A DNA stretch of 64,000 bases, taken from the NCBI RefSeq assembly GCF_000455365.1, contig NZ_HG315686.1, forward strand, positions 87,871-151,870, written 5' to 3'. Made by a program: the position numbers and the translations under genes. Positions within the stretch are counted from its first letter, which is position 1, and each line of letters starts with the position of its first letter. This DNA is from Halopiger djelfimassiliensis. GTDB lineage: Archaea; Halobacteriota; Halobacteria; Halobacteriales; Natrialbaceae. Below the pieces are notes generated by a model that saw nothing but the letters and a program-made list of their open reading frames with translations, was not told where the DNA came from and ran no database searches. This document shows, in pieces, positions 724 to 10,865 of this stretch.

Positions 724-1500
724 TCACCACTCATCGACCACGGTACGGGTATCATCGACCACAGTGGCCGGGTTTGGCGGCTCGCCGCCGTAAGCACGCT
801 CGACGAGCCCGTTCCGGTTTGCCAACAGGACGAGATTGGAGTGAACGAAGTGGCGGTCGTGGTCTCCATCCGCTCGAGCGGTGTCGGTCCCGCTGTGTTC
901 GTCGGTCGCCTCGTCGCCGGCGGCCGACCCGGGCGCTTCGCCGTCGGCCCGTTCGAACGCCACGCCGAACGTCTCCTCGACGAACGCCCGTGCCTCGCCG
1001 GGCGTCTCCGGCCGCAGGAAGTACCAGTTGCCGATGTCGAAGTCCACGCGCATGTCCTCGCCGTAGGACTCGAGGACGGCGGCGGTATCGTACTCGGGAT
1101 CGAAGGTGACGGCGAGAAACCCGACCTCGTCCTCGTAGCCGCGTTCGGTTGCGTCGTCCTGCACGCGCCGGAGGACGGCGGTCAGCCCCGGACAAACGGT
1201 CGTGCAACTCGTGAAGACGAACGTGAGCAGTACGTGTCGCTCGCCGACGAATTCCGTGGTCGAAACCGAGCGGTCGTGCAGCGGCGCTGGTGCCGTCGCT
1301 TCGGGGAGTTCTTCCCCGTAGATGGGGTGTGGGACGGCGGCGGCATCGACGCGGCCGTGGTTCTCCGGCGGCGAGAGTACGGGTCCGTCACCCGCTTCCT
1401 CGTCGGCATCCGATCGCGAACAGCCAGCCAGGGCCGTGGTCGCCGTCGTACCCGCAACGTACAGGAACGCCCGCCTGTCGAGGGACGATGTAAAGACCAT
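724..1500 (-). CDS. SCO1/SenC family copper chaperone, Tat lipoprotein
   Basis: A 258-residue SCO1/SenC/PrrC thioredoxin-fold protein, which delivers copper to the CuA site of haem-copper oxidases or to nitrous oxide reductase. The start carries a Tat motif (RRAFLYVAG) and a lipobox LAGC, so it is exported and anchored outside the membrane. The copper-binding CTTVCPGL motif is present, and the distal histidine lies in HFVHSNLVLL. An acidic, His-containing insertion precedes that histidine. It sits 129 bp downstream of, and on the same strand as, a halocyanin gene, probably as an operon, which fits a role in copper-dependent respiration. Confidence 0.9.
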   Translation of the reverse strand: MVFTSSLDRRAFLYVAGTTATTALAGCSRSDADEEAGDGPVLSPPENHGRVDAAAVPHPIYGEELPEATAPAPLHDRSVSTTEFVGERHVLLTFVFTSCTTVCPGLTAVLRRVQDDATERGYEDEVGFLAVTFDPEYDTAAVLESYGEDMRVDFDIGNWYFLRPETPGEARAFVEETFGVAFERADGEAPGSAAGDEATDEHSGTDTARADGDHDRHFVHSNLVLLANRNGLVERAYGGEPPNPATVVDDTRTVVDEW

Positions 1501-1629: not shown

Positions 1630-2211
1630 TTACGGTCCCGTCTCGAGGACGGGACGGGCCTCCTCGTTGAACGACGCGATCGCTTTCGCCGCTTGGGACG
1701 GGAGTTCGGACTGCGGTTCGGCCATCGCGGGTTCGTCGTCGGGACCCGGCCAGCCGACGACGACGCGACCGATGTTCCCGGCGACCTCGTGGGAGGTACA
1801 GACTTGCTGGGTATCGACGTAGTCGTAGACGCCCTCGCGGTCGAACGTGTGCTCGTACGACGACCCTGCCCCCGTCAGCCGGTCGCTCCCCCAGGGTTCG
1901 GTGCCGTTCGGGGTCCGGTGTGGTCCGTGACCGTCCTCGTGGTACGCGGTCACGTCGTGGCGGCCGGTCTCGACGAGCCACTCGACGGTGCCACCGGTGA
2001 CGACGTGGACGATCTGCGGATCGAACTCCGGGTACGGTCGCGAGTTCGCCGCGACGGTGACCCGTTCGGCGGGCGTTCCGAGTTCCCCTGCGTTTTCGGG
2101 TTCGCCGTCGCCGCTCGAGCGGTCGGTCACGCCGCCGAGACAGCCCCCGAGGGAAACACCGAGTACACAGGTAGTCGACCGAAGAGCGGCACGGCGGGAC
2201 GTTGGTATCAT
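1630..2211 (-). CDS. Halocyanin-like blue copper protein with Asn at the axial-ligand position
   Basis: A 193-residue exported cupredoxin. The N-terminus has Tat-like double arginine (SRRAALRS) and a lipobox-like LGGC. The copper site is visible as the first histidine in GRHDVTAYH and as VCTSHEVAGNIGRVVVG near the C-terminal end of the domain. In typical halocyanins the residue five after the second histidine is the axial methionine; here it is asparagine. Halocyanins shuttle electrons on the outer face of the membrane. About 35 residues follow the cupredoxin domain. The SCO1 gene lies downstream on the same strand. Whether the site is a working electron-transfer centre is not known. Confidence 0.85.
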   Translation of the reverse strand: MIPTSRRAALRSTTCVLGVSLGGCLGGVTDRSSGDGEPENAGELGTPAERVTVAANSRPYPEFDPQIVHVVTGGTVEWLVETGRHDVTAYHEDGHGPHRTPNGTEPWGSDRLTGAGSSYEHTFDREGVYDYVDTQQVCTSHEVAGNIGRVVVGWPGPDDEPAMAEPQSELPSQAAKAIASFNEEARPVLETGP

Positions 2212-3301: not shown

Positions 3302-3571
3302 TCAGTTTTCGGGTTTCCAGATGACGGTCACGACCTCGTCGTCGAGCTCGACGGTCTCGTGTTCGTATCCCCGGTCCTCGAGTTTCGGAAAGAGGAACTG
3401 CGGCACGCGGTCGTTGCGCTGGACCAGCACCGTCCCGTCGGGGAGTTCGACGAGGTGCTCGAGGGTCTCTTTCAGCGGTTCCGGCGGCCCGAGCGAGCGA
3501 ACGTCGATCGTTACCTGTGGGCGGTCGGTCGGGGCATCGGTTCGGTCGACGACGGACGCTGGCGACTGCAT
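3302..3571 (-). CDS. DUF2249 domain protein (89 aa)
   Basis: A small DUF2249 protein: DVRSLGPPEPLKETLEHL at the start of the domain and LFPKLEDRGYEHETVEL in the second half. It is the first of three DUF2249 genes on the same strand between 3.3 and 4.2 kb. The domain is small and cytosolic. In archaea and bacteria such genes commonly sit beside nitrite reductase, nitric oxide reductase or other anaerobic-respiration genes, but no biochemical role is established. This copy has the longest N-terminal extension (about 18 residues). Confidence 0.8.
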   Translation of the reverse strand: MQSPASVVDRTDAPTDRPQVTIDVRSLGPPEPLKETLEHLVELPDGTVLVQRNDRVPQFLFPKLEDRGYEHETVELDDEVVTVIWKPEN

Positions 3572-3690
3572 AGCCGTTCGTTCGTGGCGCTTCAGCCTGT
3601 GTTTCGTCCCGCACGTGTTCGGCCTCGATGGCGGGTTCGACGGCGACCGCGAAACGGAGCGGTGAGTACGTCCGAGAGGCCGCGTCGTTG

Positions 3691-3924
3691 CTACGTGTCT
3701 CGCTTCGGGAAGTGGGCGACGAACTCCTCGGAACCGACCTTCTCGACCTCGTATCCGTCCGCGTCGAAACTCTCGACCTCCGCCTGAAACTCGTAGAACA
3801 GCGGCTTCGGTTCGTGATCGTTGACGATCGTCAGCGTCTCGCCGGGCTCGAGGTCCGCGAACGCCTCGTGGATCTTCGGGTGGCGGTTCACCGGTGGGAT
3901 GTCCCTGACGTCGAGTCGCGTCAT
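3691..3924 (-). CDS. DUF2249 domain protein (77 aa)
   Basis: The second DUF2249 protein, with the most typical family signature: LDVRDIPPVNRHPKIHEAF, LEPGETLTIVNDHEPKPLFYEF and a C-terminal EEFVAHFPKR. The NDHEPKPL segment with its conserved histidine resembles the part of the family thought to bind a metal or haem-like ligand, though this is not proven. It follows the third copy by 73 bp on the same strand, so the two are probably co-transcribed from the divergent promoter region near 4.25 kb. Confidence 0.85.
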   Translation of the reverse strand: MTRLDVRDIPPVNRHPKIHEAFADLEPGETLTIVNDHEPKPLFYEFQAEVESFDADGYEVEKVGSEEFVAHFPKRDT

Positions 3925-3997
3925 GCAGGTGGAGGTCGGGGAGGTGTCGCCATCGTCGTTTGCCCGAACACGTTCGTCCGGTCGAGCCCGGCGGGGA

Positions 3998-4228
3998 TCA
4001 CTCCCGCCGGATCAGGACGTGCCAGACGTCTCCCTCCCGCTGTTGACTTTCGTACGCGTATCCCCGTGCCTCGAGAACCTCGTAGAGCGGCTTCGGTTCG
4101 AACGGCGCGATTAGTCGGAGCCGTTCGCCGTCCTCGAGCGAACCGAGGGCGGAGATGATGTCGTCGAACGGCGGGCCGTCGATCTCTCGGACGTCGAGCG
4201 TTCGGTCGGCGGTATCGGTTGCCATCAC
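3998..4228 (-). CDS. DUF2249 domain protein (76 aa), first gene of the cluster
   Basis: The third DUF2249 protein: TLDVREIDGPPFDDIISALGSL, LIAPFEPKPLYEVLEARGY and GDVWHVLIRRE. Unlike the 77-residue copy the central histidine is replaced (APFEPKPL). It is the promoter-proximal gene of the set and is divergent from the HTH_10 regulator at 4362; a CGAA-N4-TTCG dyad is centred about 42 bp before its start codon. Confidence 0.85.
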   Translation of the reverse strand: MMATDTADRTLDVREIDGPPFDDIISALGSLEDGERLRLIAPFEPKPLYEVLEARGYAYESQQREGDVWHVLIRRE

Positions 4229-4361: not shown

Positions 4362-5036
4362 ATGGCCCAGGCGACACTCACGATCACGATGCCCGAGCAG
4401 GTCTGGATCCAACAGATCTCGACGGACTACCCCGAAGCGACGTTCCGAGTGCTGGCTGCCGTCCCGGGAGCCGAGACCGGATTCGCGCTCGTCCGGATCG
4501 CCGGTACGGCGGTTCCCGAGGTGGTCGACGACATGAACGACCATCCCCAGATCACCGAGCTCACGCTCGCCCAGTGGAGCGAGAACGAGGCGACGGTCCA
4601 CTTCGAGACGACGGCCCCGCTCTTGCTCTTTTCCTCCCAGGAATCGGGGATGCCGATCGAACTCCCCGTCGAGATCCGGGACGGCGAGGCGACGATCGAC
4701 GTCACCGGCTCGCGCGAGCGCCTCGCCGAACTCGCCGAACAGCTCGAGCACTTCGGACTCCAGTACCGCATCGAAAACGTCCGCGAACGGCTCCACGAGA
4801 GCCAGCTCCTCTCGGAACGGCAACTCGAGATCGTCGTCGCCGCCGTCGAGGAGGGCTACTACGATACTCCCCGTCGCTGTTCGCTGACCGAACTGGCCGA
4901 ATCCCTCGATATCGCCAAGTCGACCTGCAGCGAGACGCTCCATCGGGCCGAGGAGGCGATCGTCAAACGGTTCGTCGAGGACCTTCCCGGCCTCGACGGC
5001 GAGGAACCGCTCGAGGAACAACTCGCCGCCAACTGA
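4362..5036 (+). CDS. HTH_10 (bacterio-opsin activator type) transcription regulator
   Basis: A 224-residue regulator. The C-terminal domain (about residues 164-210; LSERQLEIVVAAVEEGYYDT, then SLTELAESLDIAKSTCSETLHRAEEAIVKRF) is the HTH_10 helix-turn-helix found in Bat, DmsR and NarO. The N-terminal 150 residues form a sensor-like region without the cysteine-rich motif of NarO, so it looks closer to the DmsR type. It lies between the DUF2249 genes and the Fe-S/NrfD operon and is the obvious candidate local regulator. Its promoter contains a CGAA-N4-TTCG palindrome. The signal it senses cannot be read from the sequence. Confidence 0.88.
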   Translation: MAQATLTITMPEQVWIQQISTDYPEATFRVLAAVPGAETGFALVRIAGTAVPEVVDDMNDHPQITELTLAQWSENEATVHFETTAPLLLFSSQESGMPIELPVEIRDGEATIDVTGSRERLAELAEQLEHFGLQYRIENVRERLHESQLLSERQLEIVVAAVEEGYYDTPRRCSLTELAESLDIAKSTCSETLHRAEEAIVKRFVEDLPGLDGEEPLEEQLAAN

Positions 5037-5775: not shown

Positions 5776-5853
5776 ATGAACGTATTCAAGTGGGTGCTGT
5801 CGAGTATCCACTCCATGATAGGATGTCAAGAGGTGTTCGATCATGAGCGCTGA
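5776..5853 (+). CDS. Possible 25-residue leader peptide overlapping the Fe-S protein start
   Basis: ATG at 5776 opens a 25-codon frame (starts MNVFKWVLSSIHSM, ends QEVFDHER) whose stop TGA at 5851-5853 lies 8 nt inside the Fe-S gene that starts at 5843. A purine-rich GAGGAAC precedes the ATG. The overlap would allow translational coupling. It may equally be a chance frame; there is no family support. Confidence 0.3.
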   Translation: MNVFKWVLSSIHSMIGCQEVFDHER

Positions 5854-7504
5854 CGACGAATCGTTCCACCCGCTCGGCGAGGAGTGGGAGGGCGAACTCG
5901 AGTCGATGCTCGACGATACCGAGTACGACAGCGATCTCGGGATGCGCATGGCCGAGGACGCCATGCGCGTCACCAAGGGCGAGCTGTCGGAAGCCGAATT
6001 CCACGAGAAGTATCACGACGACGTGATGGAGGAGTTCGGCGAGGACAACCGCCCGACCGAGGAGGCCTACGAGGAGGCCAAGAAGAACGCGGGCGGTTTC
6101 GCCGAGATGCTCAAGAGCTTCGACGGCGACGGCGACGAGAGTCGCCGCGAGATGATGAAGAAGATGGGGGCCGGCGCGGCCTTCGTCGGACTCGGGGCCT
6201 GGGGCACCGTCGGCGACGGTCCCCAGCAGAGCCTCGCCGCCGAGGAGGAGCACGGGCGTCACACGGAGACCACGGAGGAAAGCGACGTCCAGTGGGGCAT
6301 GACGATCGACCTCGAGCGCTGTGACGGCTGTCTCTCCTGTATGCAGGCCTGTTCCGAGGAGAACCAGCTGGACCAGGGGGTCAACTGGATGTACGTCATG
6401 GCCTTCGAGGACGATCTCACGTCTTCCCCTGCGCCACAGCCAGACGTGGTCGGCGGACAGAGCGAATACAACATGCTCGTTCGCCCGTGCCAGCACTGTA
6501 CGGACGCTCCCTGTGAGAAGGTCTGTCCGACGACGGCCCGCCACACCCGCGACAAGGACGGGCTGGTGCTGACCGACTACGACGTCTGCATCGGCTGCCG
6601 GTACTGTCAGGTTGCCTGTCCCTACGGGGTCAACTACTTCCAGTGGGACGAACCCGACGTTCCCTACGAGGACCTCGCGAAAAACCAGGAAGCCGACGAC
6701 CCCGACGAGATCACCCACGCCGAGTACGAATACGGCGAGCGCTGGGTCGACAGCCGGGCTCCCCGCGGCGTGATGAGCAAGTGTACGATGTGTCCGTCCC
6801 ATCAGGACGGCAAGCGCGGCGACGACATGCGCGGTACGACCGCGTGTGAGGAGGCCTGTCCGCCGGACGCGATCCAGTTCGGGAACGTCAAGGACCCCAA
6901 AAGCGACGCCAGCCAGCACCGCGAAAACCCGATCAAGAGTCGGGCCATCATCGACATCGCCCCCCTCATGCCCTCGCCCGACGAGATCGACGAGAGCCTC
7001 AGCGAAGACGCCGACCTCGAGTCGGCCCTCGAGGCGGTCGATTCCCTCGACGAGGAACTCGTCAGCGTCATGAAGGCGATCGAGATCTACAGCCGCGACG
7101 GCGAAACCGATCCGGGCGAGGAAGAGAATAACACGATCCTCCGCCAGCAGCAGGACATCCTCGAGGTCCTCGAGGCGTTCGAACAGTACGTCAACCTCGA
7201 AGACGAGGCGACCCTCGAGGAACTGCGACTCGGCTCGGGTGACCACGACGACGCCCAGTCGCGGCTCATGGAGTACGCCGGCAACCCGAGTTCGAAGTTC
7301 CGCTTGCTCGACGAGATCGGCACCAACCCGAACATCACGTACCTCGGTCAGGAACCCGGGCCGGAAGCCGAGCAGGTCGAAGGGCCAAAGATGTACGAGG
7401 AGGCAAAATATGATCAGGGTGACCAAGAGGTCAACCTCGTCGACAAGCGCCAGGAGATCCTCGACGAGGGCACGGTCGGCGGCCTCGACGGGGTGTCGCT
7501 ATGA
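5843..7504 (+). CDS. Four-cluster [4Fe-4S] ferredoxin subunit, NrfC/PsrB/DmsB-like, with long N-terminal extension
   Basis: A 553-residue electron-transfer subunit. About 98 acidic residues precede a twin-arginine-like SRREMMKKMGAGAAFVGLG (from residue 100), suggesting Tat export or membrane targeting with an unusually long leading segment. Four cysteine clusters follow: CDGCLSCMQAC (near 160), CQHCTDAPCEKVC (near 216), CIGCRYCQVAC (near 249), and a split CTMC (near 314) with CEEAC (near 335). This is the classic polyferredoxin layout of NrfC, PsrB and DmsB. A charged helical tail of roughly 170 residues is atypical. It overlaps the NrfD gene (ATGA), so the two form one complex that passes electrons to or from the quinone pool. 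No molybdopterin subunit lies nearby. Confidence 0.9.
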   Translation: MSADDESFHPLGEEWEGELESMLDDTEYDSDLGMRMAEDAMRVTKGELSEAEFHEKYHDDVMEEFGEDNRPTEEAYEEAKKNAGGFAEMLKSFDGDGDESRREMMKKMGAGAAFVGLGAWGTVGDGPQQSLAAEEEHGRHTETTEESDVQWGMTIDLERCDGCLSCMQACSEENQLDQGVNWMYVMAFEDDLTSSPAPQPDVVGGQSEYNMLVRPCQHCTDAPCEKVCPTTARHTRDKDGLVLTDYDVCIGCRYCQVACPYGVNYFQWDEPDVPYEDLAKNQEADDPDEITHAEYEYGERWVDSRAPRGVMSKCTMCPSHQDGKRGDDMRGTTACEEACPPDAIQFGNVKDPKSDASQHRENPIKSRAIIDIAPLMPSPDEIDESLSEDADLESALEAVDSLDEELVSVMKAIEIYSRDGETDPGEEENNTILRQQQDILEVLEAFEQYVNLEDEATLEELRLGSGDHDDAQSRLMEYAGNPSSKFRLLDEIGTNPNITYLGQEPGPEAEQVEGPKMYEEAKYDQGDQEVNLVDKRQEILDEGTVGGLDGVSL

Positions 7505-8898
7505 GCACGAAGACACCCTCCGAGGAGGACATCCTCCGGCCGATCAACACGCTGACCAAGAAGTACATCATCATGTACGCCGCGGCCGCCCTCGGCCTCG
7601 TCGCGTTCCTCGTGGCCTGGGCCTATCAGCTCGAGAAGGGGCTGATCGTCACCGGGCTCGGTGACTGGGGTACCGGTGGCGGCTCGACGTGGGGCCTGTA
7701 CATCGGCGCGTTCATCTGGTGGGTCGGCGTCGCCCACGGCGGGATTATTCTCTCGGCCGCCGTCCGTCTGCTCGGAATGGACCGGTACATGCCCGTCGCA
7801 CGGATCGCCGAGATGACGACGATCGGCGGGCTCTCGGCCGCTGGCTTCTACATTCTGGTCCACATGGGTCGTCCGGACCGGATGGTCACCAGCGTCATCG
7901 GCCACTACCACATCACGGTCAACAACTCGCCGCTGGTGTGGGACGTGACCGTCATTACGGCCTACTTCGTGCTGTCGGCGACCTACCTCGGCCTGACGCT
8001 TCGCTACGACATCTCCCGGCTGCGCGATCAGCTCCCGTCGTTCGCACCGAAGATCGGCGGGGTTCAGCTTCCGGACCTGTACGGGATCGTCTACAACGTG
8101 ATGACGATCGGCTACACCGAGAAGGAAGACGAGGTCATCGAGCGGATGGTCTGGTGGCTCGCGGCTGCGGTCATCATCATGGCCCCGCTCTTGCTCCACG
8201 GCGGCGTTATTCCGTGGCTGTTCTCGCTGCTTCCGGCGATGCCCGCCTGGACCGGCGGAATTCAGGGCCCGATGTTCCTGAGCATCGCGCTGATGTCGGC
8301 GATCAGCGGCGTGATGATCATCTCCTACTCGTTCCGTCGCGCCTACGACTGGGACCACATCATCACCGACGACATCTTCCGCGGGCTGCTCCTGTGGCTC
8401 GGGTTCTTCATCCTGCTGTTCCTCTGGTTCCAGCTGCAGTTCGTCCTCAACGGCGTCTTCCTCGGCCCGCTTGACAAGGCACACGCGGCCGAGGAGAAGA
8501 TCGCAAGCCCGCTCTACCAGATCGCGATCGGGATGATCTTCGCGACGCTCGTGTACATCTTCCTGCAGGCGATCCGCCCGGCGCTGTTCAGCAAGAAGCG
8601 AGCGCTCCTCGCCAGCGCTGCGGTGCTCGTCGGGACGCTGACCGAGAAGGTCCTGTTCGTCGTCGAAGGGTTCATGGACCCGCACTTCAACATCTACGCC
8701 GCGACGCCCGGGACGTACTTCCCGGGCGCGATCGAGTGGCTGTCGCTCGTCGGGACGGGCGGTCTGGTTGCCCTGCTGTTCCTCAACCTCTCGAAGCTCG
8801 TTCCGGTGGTCGAACTCCACGCGATCGAGCACCTGCGCGGTGACCACGACCACGATCACGAACACACTGACGCGACCGAACCCGAGGTGGAAGCATGA
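7501..8898 (+). CDS. nrfD: NrfD/PsrC-type membrane subunit (quinone-interacting)
   Basis: A 465-residue integral membrane protein of the NrfD/PsrC/ActC family, with about ten hydrophobic segments by eye and the family-typical sequence GAFIWWVGVAHGGIILSAAV, followed by HMGRPDRM and NNSPLVWDVT. Such subunits exchange electrons between quinone and a partner Fe-S protein. The start overlaps the Fe-S gene stop (ATGA) and the end overlaps the next small membrane gene (ATGA), so the three genes are translationally coupled. The C-terminus is a His/Asp-rich tail (DHDHDHEHTD) that might bind metal or be flexible. Confidence 0.92.
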   Translation: MSTKTPSEEDILRPINTLTKKYIIMYAAAALGLVAFLVAWAYQLEKGLIVTGLGDWGTGGGSTWGLYIGAFIWWVGVAHGGIILSAAVRLLGMDRYMPVARIAEMTTIGGLSAAGFYILVHMGRPDRMVTSVIGHYHITVNNSPLVWDVTVITAYFVLSATYLGLTLRYDISRLRDQLPSFAPKIGGVQLPDLYGIVYNVMTIGYTEKEDEVIERMVWWLAAAVIIMAPLLLHGGVIPWLFSLLPAMPAWTGGIQGPMFLSIALMSAISGVMIISYSFRRAYDWDHIITDDIFRGLLLWLGFFILLFLWFQLQFVLNGVFLGPLDKAHAAEEKIASPLYQIAIGMIFATLVYIFLQAIRPALFSKKRALLASAAVLVGTLTEKVLFVVEGFMDPHFNIYAATPGTYFPGAIEWLSLVGTGGLVALLFLNLSKLVPVVELHAIEHLRGDHDHDHEHTDATEPEVEA

Positions 8899-9203
8899 AC
8901 GCAGCACTCGCAACCCTTGCGTCGAACCTGCTGTACCACGGCTACGACGGTACCGAAGGCTTTACCGGCTTCGCCAACGAGGGAACCTGGATCATCTTCG
9001 CCGTCATCCTGGTCCCGGTCTACATCATGCTCATCGCTTGGTTCACCGGGGAACCCCGCGACACGAAAAGCGGACTGCTCGGCGTCTCGTATCTCGTCGG
9101 GCTGACGACATCGATGTGGGTCGGCATGTTCTTCCTGACGCTGCTGATCGGCATCGTCTTCTACGGCGGGATGCCCGAACCGGTCGGCGCACCCGGCCCG
9201 TAA
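8895..9203 (+). CDS. Small two-helix membrane protein, third gene of the NrfCD operon
   Basis: A 102-residue protein with two hydrophobic segments (TWIIFAVILVPVYIMLIAWF and SMWVGMFFLTLLIGIVFYGG) separated by a charged loop GEPRDTKSGLLGVSYLVG. It overlaps the end of nrfD by 4 bp, so it is probably an accessory subunit of the same complex. I know no named family. A close paralogue lies at 9361-9663; both share LYHGY(D/E)GTEG near the N-terminus and PEP(V/I)G(A/T)PGP at the C-terminus. Confidence 0.8.
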   Translation: MNAALATLASNLLYHGYDGTEGFTGFANEGTWIIFAVILVPVYIMLIAWFTGEPRDTKSGLLGVSYLVGLTTSMWVGMFFLTLLIGIVFYGGMPEPVGAPGP

Positions 9204-9260
9204 CTGGACCGACGCCGTAGCGATCCCGGATTCGTTTTTTGCGCTCGTAACCCTCGACAT

Positions 9261-9282
9261 GCCGTCTCGACGTTGAGACGGC
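9261..9282. terminator. Hairpin after the NrfCD operon
   Basis: GCCGTCTC (9261-9268) and GAGACGGC (9275-9282) are perfect 8-bp arms with a 6-nt loop. A T-run (gttttttg) lies about 25 bp earlier, 30 bp after the small membrane gene. T-runs terminate archaeal transcription, so this is a reasonable end for the operon, though the hairpin itself may play another role. Confidence 0.45.
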
Positions 9283-9360
9283 TGGTACTCTCGGTGACCC
9301 TGACGACGACCATGATGACGCAGGGGAAACTGCAACCAGCCGTGGCGTGGACGGCCGACC

Positions 9361-9663
9361 ATGTCGGTTCCTGACACGCTCGCGTCGGTCCTCTACCACG
9401 GCTACGAGGGGACCGAGGGGTTGACCGGGTTTCCCAACGACGGCACGTGGCTTATCTTCGGTATCGTCCTGTTGCCGGTCTACGTCATGGTCGTCGCGTG
9501 GTTCGTCGGTTCCCCTCGTAGCCCGAAAACGGGACTGCTCGGCGTCTCGTATCTCGTCGGGCTGACGACGACGATGTGGGTTTCGATGCTGGTCCTGACG
9601 GTAGTGATCGGCTTCGTCTTCTACGGCGAGATACCCGAACCGATCGGTACTCCCGGACCGTAG
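9361..9663 (+). CDS. Second small two-helix membrane protein, paralogue of the operon gene
   Basis: A 100-residue protein closely similar along its whole length to the one at 8895-9203: shared LYHGYEGTEG, GTWLIF, GLLGVSYLVGLTT and PEPIGTPGP. The N-terminal MSVPDTLASV differs. It stands after the operon's likely terminator, 157 bp away, so it probably arose by tandem duplication and may be expressed separately, giving an alternative subunit. Two transmembrane segments; no named family. Confidence 0.78.
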   Translation: MSVPDTLASVLYHGYEGTEGLTGFPNDGTWLIFGIVLLPVYVMVVAWFVGSPRSPKTGLLGVSYLVGLTTTMWVSMLVLTVVIGFVFYGEIPEPIGTPGP

Positions 9664-9773: not shown

Positions 9774-10865
9774 ATGAGTATCACAGAACACGAACTCAAG
9801 ATCAAACTCGAGGGTATCGAAGACCCCGATATCGGCGAGGACATCGTCTCGCTCGGGTTGGTCAACGACGTCACCATCGAGGACGAGACCGCACGTATTT
9901 CGCTTGCATTTAACACTCCCTACGCACCGTCGGAACTGGAGATCGGGAACCGGGTCCGAGAGGTCGTCTCGGAGGCCGGTCTCGAGGCCGATCTGCGCGC
10001 ACACGTCGGTCAGGAACACGGCATCGAGAACGAAATCCTCCCGCGCGTTCGCAACGTCATCGCCGTCGCCTCCGGGAAGGGTGGCGTCGGGAAGACGACC
10101 GTCGCGGCGAACCTCGCGGCCGGACTCGAGAAACGCGGTGCGATGGTCGGCCTGCTGGACGCCGACATTCACGGGCCAAACGTCCCGAAGATCCTGCCGG
10201 TGGAAAACGAGCCTGGGGTAACGCCGAGCGAGGACATCGTGCCGCCCCGCTCCGACGGCGTCCGCGTGATCAGTATGGGCTTTATGATGGAGGAAGACGA
10301 CGACCCGGCGATCCTTCGGGGGCCGATGGTCAACAAGTTCATGATCAAGTTCCTCGAGGGCGTCGAGTGGGGTCGACTCGACTATCTCATCGTCGACCTG
10401 CCGCCGGGGACCGGTGACGCGACGTTGAACCTGCTCCAGTCGATGCCGGTCACGGGATCGGTCGTCGTCACCACGCCACAGGAGATGGCGCTGGAGGACA
10501 CCCGGAAGGGGATCCAGATGTTCAACAAACACGACACGCCGGTGCTCGGCGTCGTCGAGAACATGAGTTCGTTCGTCTGTCCGAGCTGTGGCGACCAGCA
10601 CGGGCTGTTCGGCACCGAAGGGGCCGACTCCATCGTCGACAAGTACGATGTCCCGTTGCTCGGTCGGGTCCCGATCCACCCGGACTTCGGCGCGGACGGG
10701 AGCGAAGGCGCGCTCGTCAAAAACGACGAGAGCGAGGTACAGGAGCCCGTCGAGGAACTCGTCGGCGAAATCGCCGATCGCGTCGGCGAGATCAACCGGC
10801 GGACGGTTTCGGAACACGTGTCCGACGAACCGGACGACAGGCTCCCGACCGAGACCGAAGACTGA
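9774..10865 (+). CDS. Mrp/NBP35/ApbC-family Fe-S cluster carrier ATPase
   Basis: A 363-residue cytosolic P-loop ATPase. An N-terminal DUF59/MIP18-like domain (LEGIEDPDIGEDIVSLGLV, residues about 8-80) precedes the deviant Walker A GKGGVGKTT near residue 100, the LIVDLPPGTGD switch and the CPSCG pair that binds a bridging Fe-S cluster. Proteins of this family assemble or deliver [4Fe-4S] clusters, which fits its position just after a four-cluster Fe-S protein. Start chosen at MSITEHELK because the 66 upstream codons of the open frame are not family-like. Confidence 0.92.
   Translation: MSITEHELKIKLEGIEDPDIGEDIVSLGLVNDVTIEDETARISLAFNTPYAPSELEIGNRVREVVSEAGLEADLRAHVGQEHGIENEILPRVRNVIAVASGKGGVGKTTVAANLAAGLEKRGAMVGLLDADIHGPNVPKILPVENEPGVTPSEDIVPPRSDGVRVISMGFMMEEDDDPAILRGPMVNKFMIKFLEGVEWGRLDYLIVDLPPGTGDATLNLLQSMPVTGSVVVTTPQEMALEDTRKGIQMFNKHDTPVLGVVENMSSFVCPSCGDQHGLFGTEGADSIVDKYDVPLLGRVPIHPDFGADGSEGALVKNDESEVQEPVEELVGEIADRVGEINRRTVSEHVSDEPDDRLPTETED

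Follow-up and report, generated by a model that had tools for sequence, protein, structure and literature searches.

The closest described relative of the system treated here is the alternative complex III (ACIII, ActABCDEF), whose acceptor in Roseiflexus is a blue copper protein, auracyanin (PMC8552683). About one third of the haloarchaea have no complex III equivalent, and their path from menaquinol to halocyanin was still unresolved in 2021 (PMC8305020). Cytochrome bc1 was reported missing from Haloterrigena turkmenica, Natrialba magadii, and Natronomonas pharaonis, with the quinone-to-halocyanin step left unresolved (PMC3403918), complex III genes were not found in N. pharaonis (PMC2881530), and related strains were concluded to lack both complex III and its alternatives and thus to depend on quinol oxidases (PMC6176080). 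Here, a 64,000-nucleotide stretch of the Halopiger djelfimassiliensis chromosome (NZ_HG315686.1, positions 87,871 to 151,870; contig C3, genome size 3.78 Mb), henceforth called the window, was analysed for an operon encoding an Fe-S subunit (FeS), an NrfD-family membrane subunit, two small membrane proteins, and an Fe-S carrier ATPase (Mrp). Judged from its sequence and distribution, this operon is probably a minimal ACIII-like menaquinol:halocyanin oxidoreductase that replaces cytochrome bc1 and has its own Fe-S carrier, and it appears to be the best, and a strong, candidate for the missing complex III of haloarchaea without cytochrome bc (bc-less). An earlier proposal of the operon as complex III was not found in the literature searched (subscription papers and bioRxiv being outside the search).

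The operon is read from the forward strand. FeS (5843..7504, 553 amino acids (aa)), a four-cluster electron-transfer subunit of the twin-arginine translocation (Tat) type resembling NrfC and the Fe-S part of ActB, was recognised by Pfam Fer4 domains, 16 conserved cysteines, and PDB relatives. It is followed by the NrfD-family quinone subunit (7501..8898, 465 aa; PF03916), by a hydrophobic 102-aa protein with two membrane helices apparent from its sequence (small1, 8895..9203), by the 100-aa paralogue of the latter (small2, 9361..9663, 69% identity), and by an operon-specific paralogue of the Mrp/ApbC/NBP35-type Fe-S carrier ATPases (9774..10865; PF10609, PF01883). FeS and NrfD as well as NrfD and small1 overlap at ATGA, and the small proteins had no relative in Pfam, NCBIfam, or PDB searches. 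Among 60 regions examined, FeS is directly followed by NrfD in 41; the small protein is the third gene in 40 of these 41 operons and Mrp is adjacent in 38. A preliminary description of this DNA had already given the FeS-NrfD-small protein operon and its stop-start overlaps, which were confirmed here at the same coordinates. The genes that it reported were right, with the downstream Mrp gene left out, and the duplicated small partner that it pointed out is real in the window, although one copy is usual and two are found in 10 of the 41 operons.

As judged from sequence and predicted structure, the operon's NrfD is an ActC-type quinone subunit. A PDB sequence search with NrfD returned ActC chains only, and its AlphaFold model (mean predicted local distance difference test (pLDDT) 75) gave eight PDB matches at E < 0.001, all of them ActC or ActF of ACIII, with template modelling (TM) scores of 0.75–0.79 to ActC. 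The ActC residue list of PMC8076601 was mapped onto NrfD by alignment: the quinone-site residues H139, S164, and D169 correspond to H121, S143, and D148, each conserved in 38–41 of 42 sequences, and D253 is replaced by Leu; in the N-side half-channel 10 of 13 ActC residues are kept and an eleventh is Ser/Thr. Some haloarchaeal sequences named "DmsC" were previously placed in the ActC group (PMC8076601). NrfD paralogues also occur outside the operon: a second NrfD of the same genome (70% identical) has no FeS gene with it and lies next to a Pyr_redox_2 FAD/NAD(P) oxidoreductase (locus L093, 8981-10804 and 10945-12189), a gene of about 407–412 aa neighbours a solitary NrfD in several other Natrialbaceae, and a third paralogue with kept quinone-site motifs is fully solitary (L094, 8746-10065).

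The cysteines of FeS show four-cluster spacing, 15 of the 16 being invariant and C317 being present in 53 of 57 homologues. Both the sequence and the predicted model resemble ArrB, PsrB, and the Fe-S part of ActB (ArrB and ActB being the PDB relatives), and Y254, which has a ligand on either side (CxxCRYC), is by motif the counterpart of QrcC Y113, a residue essential in quinone electron transfer (PMC13059093). The acidic leader before a Tat-like motif that had been noticed in the preliminary description exists, but is a known Pfam domain, Ferredoxin_N (PF16947, E 6e-36; residues 9-73, 5867..6061), present in all 41 FeS relatives scanned; the twin-arginine pair R101-R102 (SRREMMKKMG, 6143..6148) is kept in 56 of 57 homologues. 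What had been taken for a long helical tail is instead a helical acidic insert of the Natrialbaceae (about residues 365-480, 6935..7282; based on the lengths of 57 sequences and predicted helices) ahead of an ordinary C-terminal motif (FKLLE..GT.PN..Y.G) that all relatives have in some form. The N-terminal domain of the model yielded no separate structural match, and a molybdopterin domain was not detected in Pfam scans of the 553-aa protein and its relatives. A large insert ahead of the same motif also occurs in the 766-aa FeS of genome G117 (L062, 9288-11588). Solitary Tat-type FeS paralogues without NrfD were seen at L033 (9692-11053), L048, and L053, the last two, from one genus, beside cox1-cox2.

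Compared with the described systems, the module shares with ACIII the ActC-type quinone subunit (fold, quinone-site H/S/D, and N-side channel residues), a four-cluster Fe-S partner on the outer face, and the occurrence where bc1 is absent. Unlike ActB, its FeS has no fused molybdopterin-like domain, and the operon contains neither the heme c subunits ActA and ActE (no operon protein of the window has a CxxCH heme c motif) nor ActF; there is one NrfD per operon, and the unlinked NrfD paralogues keep the quinone-site motifs. Further differences from ACIII are the additional small proteins with two transmembrane helices and of no known family, the dedicated Mrp, Ferredoxin_N ahead of the Tat motif, and mostly different P-side residues. 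Lacking hemes, a molybdopterin-like domain, and an operon-encoded ActF, the module thus appears ACIII-like in its core and probable role, yet falls outside ACIII. NrfCD of NrfABCD is likewise a molybdopterin-free quinol dehydrogenase pair of FeS and NrfD feeding an extracytoplasmic carrier; there, however, the acceptor is multiheme NrfB/NrfA, of which no conserved counterpart was found in the 41 operons, whereas the module's NrfD is ActC-type by fold and sequence. QrcABCD resembles the module in its FeS (QrcC) and NrfD-type (QrcD) subunits, the conserved Tyr in the proximal cluster motif, and an N-side proton path, but it includes a hexaheme cytochrome and the molybdopterin-like QrcB and runs toward menaquinone. 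DsrO and DsrP of DsrMKJOP were the best NCBIfam matches of FeS and NrfD, respectively, both far under the cut-off, and the operon has no DsrMKJ genes. Unlike in Psr/Dms/Ttr molybdoenzymes, no catalytic molybdopterin subunit is encoded in the operon. The premise of the preliminary description that NrfCD normally accompanies such a subunit is wrong for NrfABCD and DsrMKJOP, in which NrfCD and DsrOP sit without one (PMC8076601).

Across 194 haloarchaeal genomes, cytochrome b (PF00033) is missing in 52, including that of the window, and PF13631 had no match above the cut-off in these 52 genomes, with matches in six controls. The module is present in 50 of the 52 genomes without cytochrome b versus 15 of the 142 with it. 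Because the window's family dominates this association, it was retested without that family, giving the module in 7 of 9 bc-less genomes versus 12 of 136 others (p 7e-6, with related genomes counted as independent). Among bc-less lineages, the module is carried by the bulk of family f1, in family f3 by genera g33 and g52, and in family f10 by g57. Neither COX2 nor a PF00127 cupredoxin is encoded by the two bc-less genomes that do not have the module (G007 and G093), which would therefore have no use for such an enzyme. COX2 was found in 22 of 25 bc-less genomes tested, the CuA motif C-x3-C-x3-H-x2-M is intact in each of the 30 bc-less COX2 loci that were inspected, and PF00127 cupredoxins occur in all 21 bc-less genomes with the module that were tested. 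As far as these gene distributions indicate, the module most likely stands in for the bc complex in bc-less haloarchaea.

Halocyanin genes precede FeS on the same strand, at a distance of 46–152 base pairs (bp), in five genomes (G047, G045, G104, G179, and G117), and the same arrangement was seen in Natronosalvus, Natronobiforma, Halovivax, and Natronoglomus records, i.e., in two lineages and several genera. These genes were called by the TIGR03102 model, one of them being just under the cut-off and the G104 and Natronobiforma proteins being identical; most of the proteins have a Tat motif and a lipobox cysteine. In the window, two genes on the other strand lie 3.6–5 kb upstream of the operon, one for a halocyanin-like cupredoxin (1630..2211; PF00127, weak TIGR03102) that is a candidate acceptor or a relative of the acceptor, and one for an SCO1/SenC protein of the CuA assembly factor family (724..1500; PF02630, E 7e-14). 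Similar pairs occur at L075, L077, and L079. In G020, a genome with no cytochrome b and no molybdopterin oxidoreductase gene (MopB, PF00384), cox1-cox2 are about 7 kb from FeS; cox genes lie near the operon at L042.

Some Mrp is present in every one of the 194 genomes. The operon type (at least 464 bits to the window's Mrp) was found in 64 of 65 genomes with a module NrfD (at least about 500 bits) versus 2 of 129 without. A housekeeping Mrp as the explanation was rejected, since the operon type stands apart as a high-scoring group whose presence follows that of the module, and by this distribution Mrp belongs to the FeS-NrfD system. The window's Mrp is a P-loop NTPase (PF10609 at 303 bits) with the CxxC pair (CPSC) of NBP35/ApbC/Mrp carriers. 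Proteins of the Mrp/NBP35/Ind1 group deliver [4Fe-4S] clusters to their targets, and the four clusters of FeS must be loaded before Tat export, which would make FeS a natural client of Mrp. A different Mrp paralogue lies upstream of narGHJ in the window's genome (L035, 6556-13679), with no cytochrome b or Rieske gene alongside.

NrfD and four-cluster subunits often serve molybdoenzymes, and FeS-NrfD could accordingly be a standard electron-transfer and anchor pair of the Psr/Dms/Ttr type for a molybdopterin subunit whose gene lies elsewhere in the genome. A MopB gene of some kind is present in most genomes with the module, and at L068 (9405-15068) a related FeS-NrfD pair adjoins one; this FeS-NrfD-MopB operon is the only one of the 41 without a small protein and the only one with a molybdopterin gene directly after, and as its FeS has a Ferredoxin_N-like leader (and no RR motif), such a leader also occurs outside the molybdopterin-free module. 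PF00384 is, however, absent from 6 of 66 module-bearing genomes (G020, G032, G043, G101, G127, and G179; 98–99% complete), so that a molybdopterin partner is not obligatory, and an obligate partner in trans was rejected on this count. In the window's genome, the PF00384 gene closest to the operon is narG, at a distance of about 66 kb, in line with the earlier statement that none lies within roughly 20 kb, and the only other one is nasA-like and on another contig. NarG has its own NarH and the NasA-like protein is encoded beside an assimilatory-type reductase, and the module's NrfD is ActC-like, not PsrC-like. Nitrate reductase could be one client: in the 194 genomes searched, all 16 with a close NarG homologue carry the module, which may thus also supply nitrate reductase, but a close NarG homologue is missing from 49 of the 65 genomes with the module, and an obligate NarGH link was rejected. 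Overall, the module is very improbable as a Psr/Dms/Ttr-type pair. The conservation survey proposed in the preliminary description hence gave a conserved haloarchaeal operon that is present in six genomes without any MopB gene, for which the outcome named there as contrary, an obligate molybdopterin subunit encoded elsewhere, is excluded. Its core idea of a molybdopterin-free module handing electrons from FeS to a separate acceptor, perhaps halocyanin, gains support from these six genomes and the upstream halocyanin genes; the links to the absent bc complex, ActC, and the dedicated Mrp had been missed.

Electrons might also run the other way, i.e., from an extracytoplasmic donor via FeS to menaquinone with use of cytoplasmic protons, as in a Qrc-like menaquinone reductase. 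The conserved N-side half-channel, with the P-side one not conserved, would fit this, as QrcD draws protons from the cytoplasm without pumping (PMC13059093). Such a reductase nonetheless seems unlikely: the operon has no conserved donor gene (hydrogenase, formate dehydrogenase, or multiheme cytochrome), and neither the link to the absent bc complex nor those to halocyanin and CuA oxidases would be predicted. Alternatively, bc-less haloarchaea could rely on quinol oxidases and do without a complex III, as published for sulfur-respiring natronoarchaea (PMC6176080), with the module serving, e.g., quinol oxidation for an oxyanion reductase or redox balance. The 15 genomes that have both cytochrome b and the module speak for this possibility, which we regard as quite unlikely, given the CuA sites in 30 of 30 inspected loci and the cupredoxins in 21 of 21 tested genomes, and given that the inverse distribution would then be a coincidence. 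A CuA site is typical of oxidases that receive their electrons from a one-electron carrier.

In the preferred reading as a menaquinol:halocyanin oxidoreductase, we infer the electron direction, halocyanin as direct acceptor, the subunit composition, the proton coupling, and the roles of Mrp and of the leader. The ActC-type NrfD would bind and oxidise menaquinol near the outer membrane face and pass the electrons to the adjacent Tat-exported four-cluster FeS, from which they would reach membrane-anchored halocyanin in one-electron steps and then CuA-containing terminal oxidases. Small1 and small2 would be accessory membrane subunits, cytoplasmic Mrp would supply FeS with its clusters ahead of Tat export, and a part in the quality control of this loading may fall to the Ferredoxin_N leader. 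At the sequence level, this reading draws on the ActC fold and quinone residues, the Tat motif, the cluster ligands, the lack of heme c motifs and a molybdopterin domain, the co-occurrence of Mrp, the inverse cytochrome b distribution, and the halocyanin linkage.

Several points weigh against it. The support comes from comparative genomics, and the inverse distribution is dominated by Natrialbaceae, with support from about three further bc-less lineages. Halocyanin is not adjacent to the operon in most genomes, and the halocyanins directly upstream (L054 9057-9572, L111 7179-7688, L112 7844-8335, L165 4178-4672, and L192 4045-4554) often show Gln (GQKG) at the position of the axial copper ligand Met, an exchange that may lower the halocyanin potential. 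Genome G129 has the module but no COX2. The second half of NrfD aligns to ActC more weakly than the first, and only E394 of six ActC residues is kept in the P-side half-channel (R395 being Lys), so that energy conservation may differ from that of ACIII or be absent. In ACIII itself, the role of the Fe-S clusters is unsettled and electron transfer is ascribed to the hemes (PMC8552683).

It is reasonably likely, if less so than the preferred reading, that the module represents a new kind of complex III, namely an Fe-S menaquinol:halocyanin oxidoreductase that contains neither heme nor molybdenum, has an Fe-S carrier of its own, takes the place of bc1 in several separate lineages of haloarchaea, and may be the simplest working ActB/ActC module. 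If so, the Fe-S and ActC core of ACIII could work without hemes or a molybdopterin-like domain, which would be relevant to the dispute over what the Fe-S clusters do in bacterial ACIII and to the evolutionary replacement of complex III. A single conserved operon filling the complex III gap would also make the menaquinol-to-halocyanin question testable.

Upstream of the operon on the forward strand, a bacterio-opsin activator type HTH_10 protein (4362..5036; PF04967) is encoded, which is a likely but unproven regulator and is found upstream of the operon in many Natrialbaceae. Three tandem DUF2249 genes (3302-4228, reverse strand) lie between this regulator and an alpha/beta hydrolase gene and are often located near the operon in Natrialbaceae.

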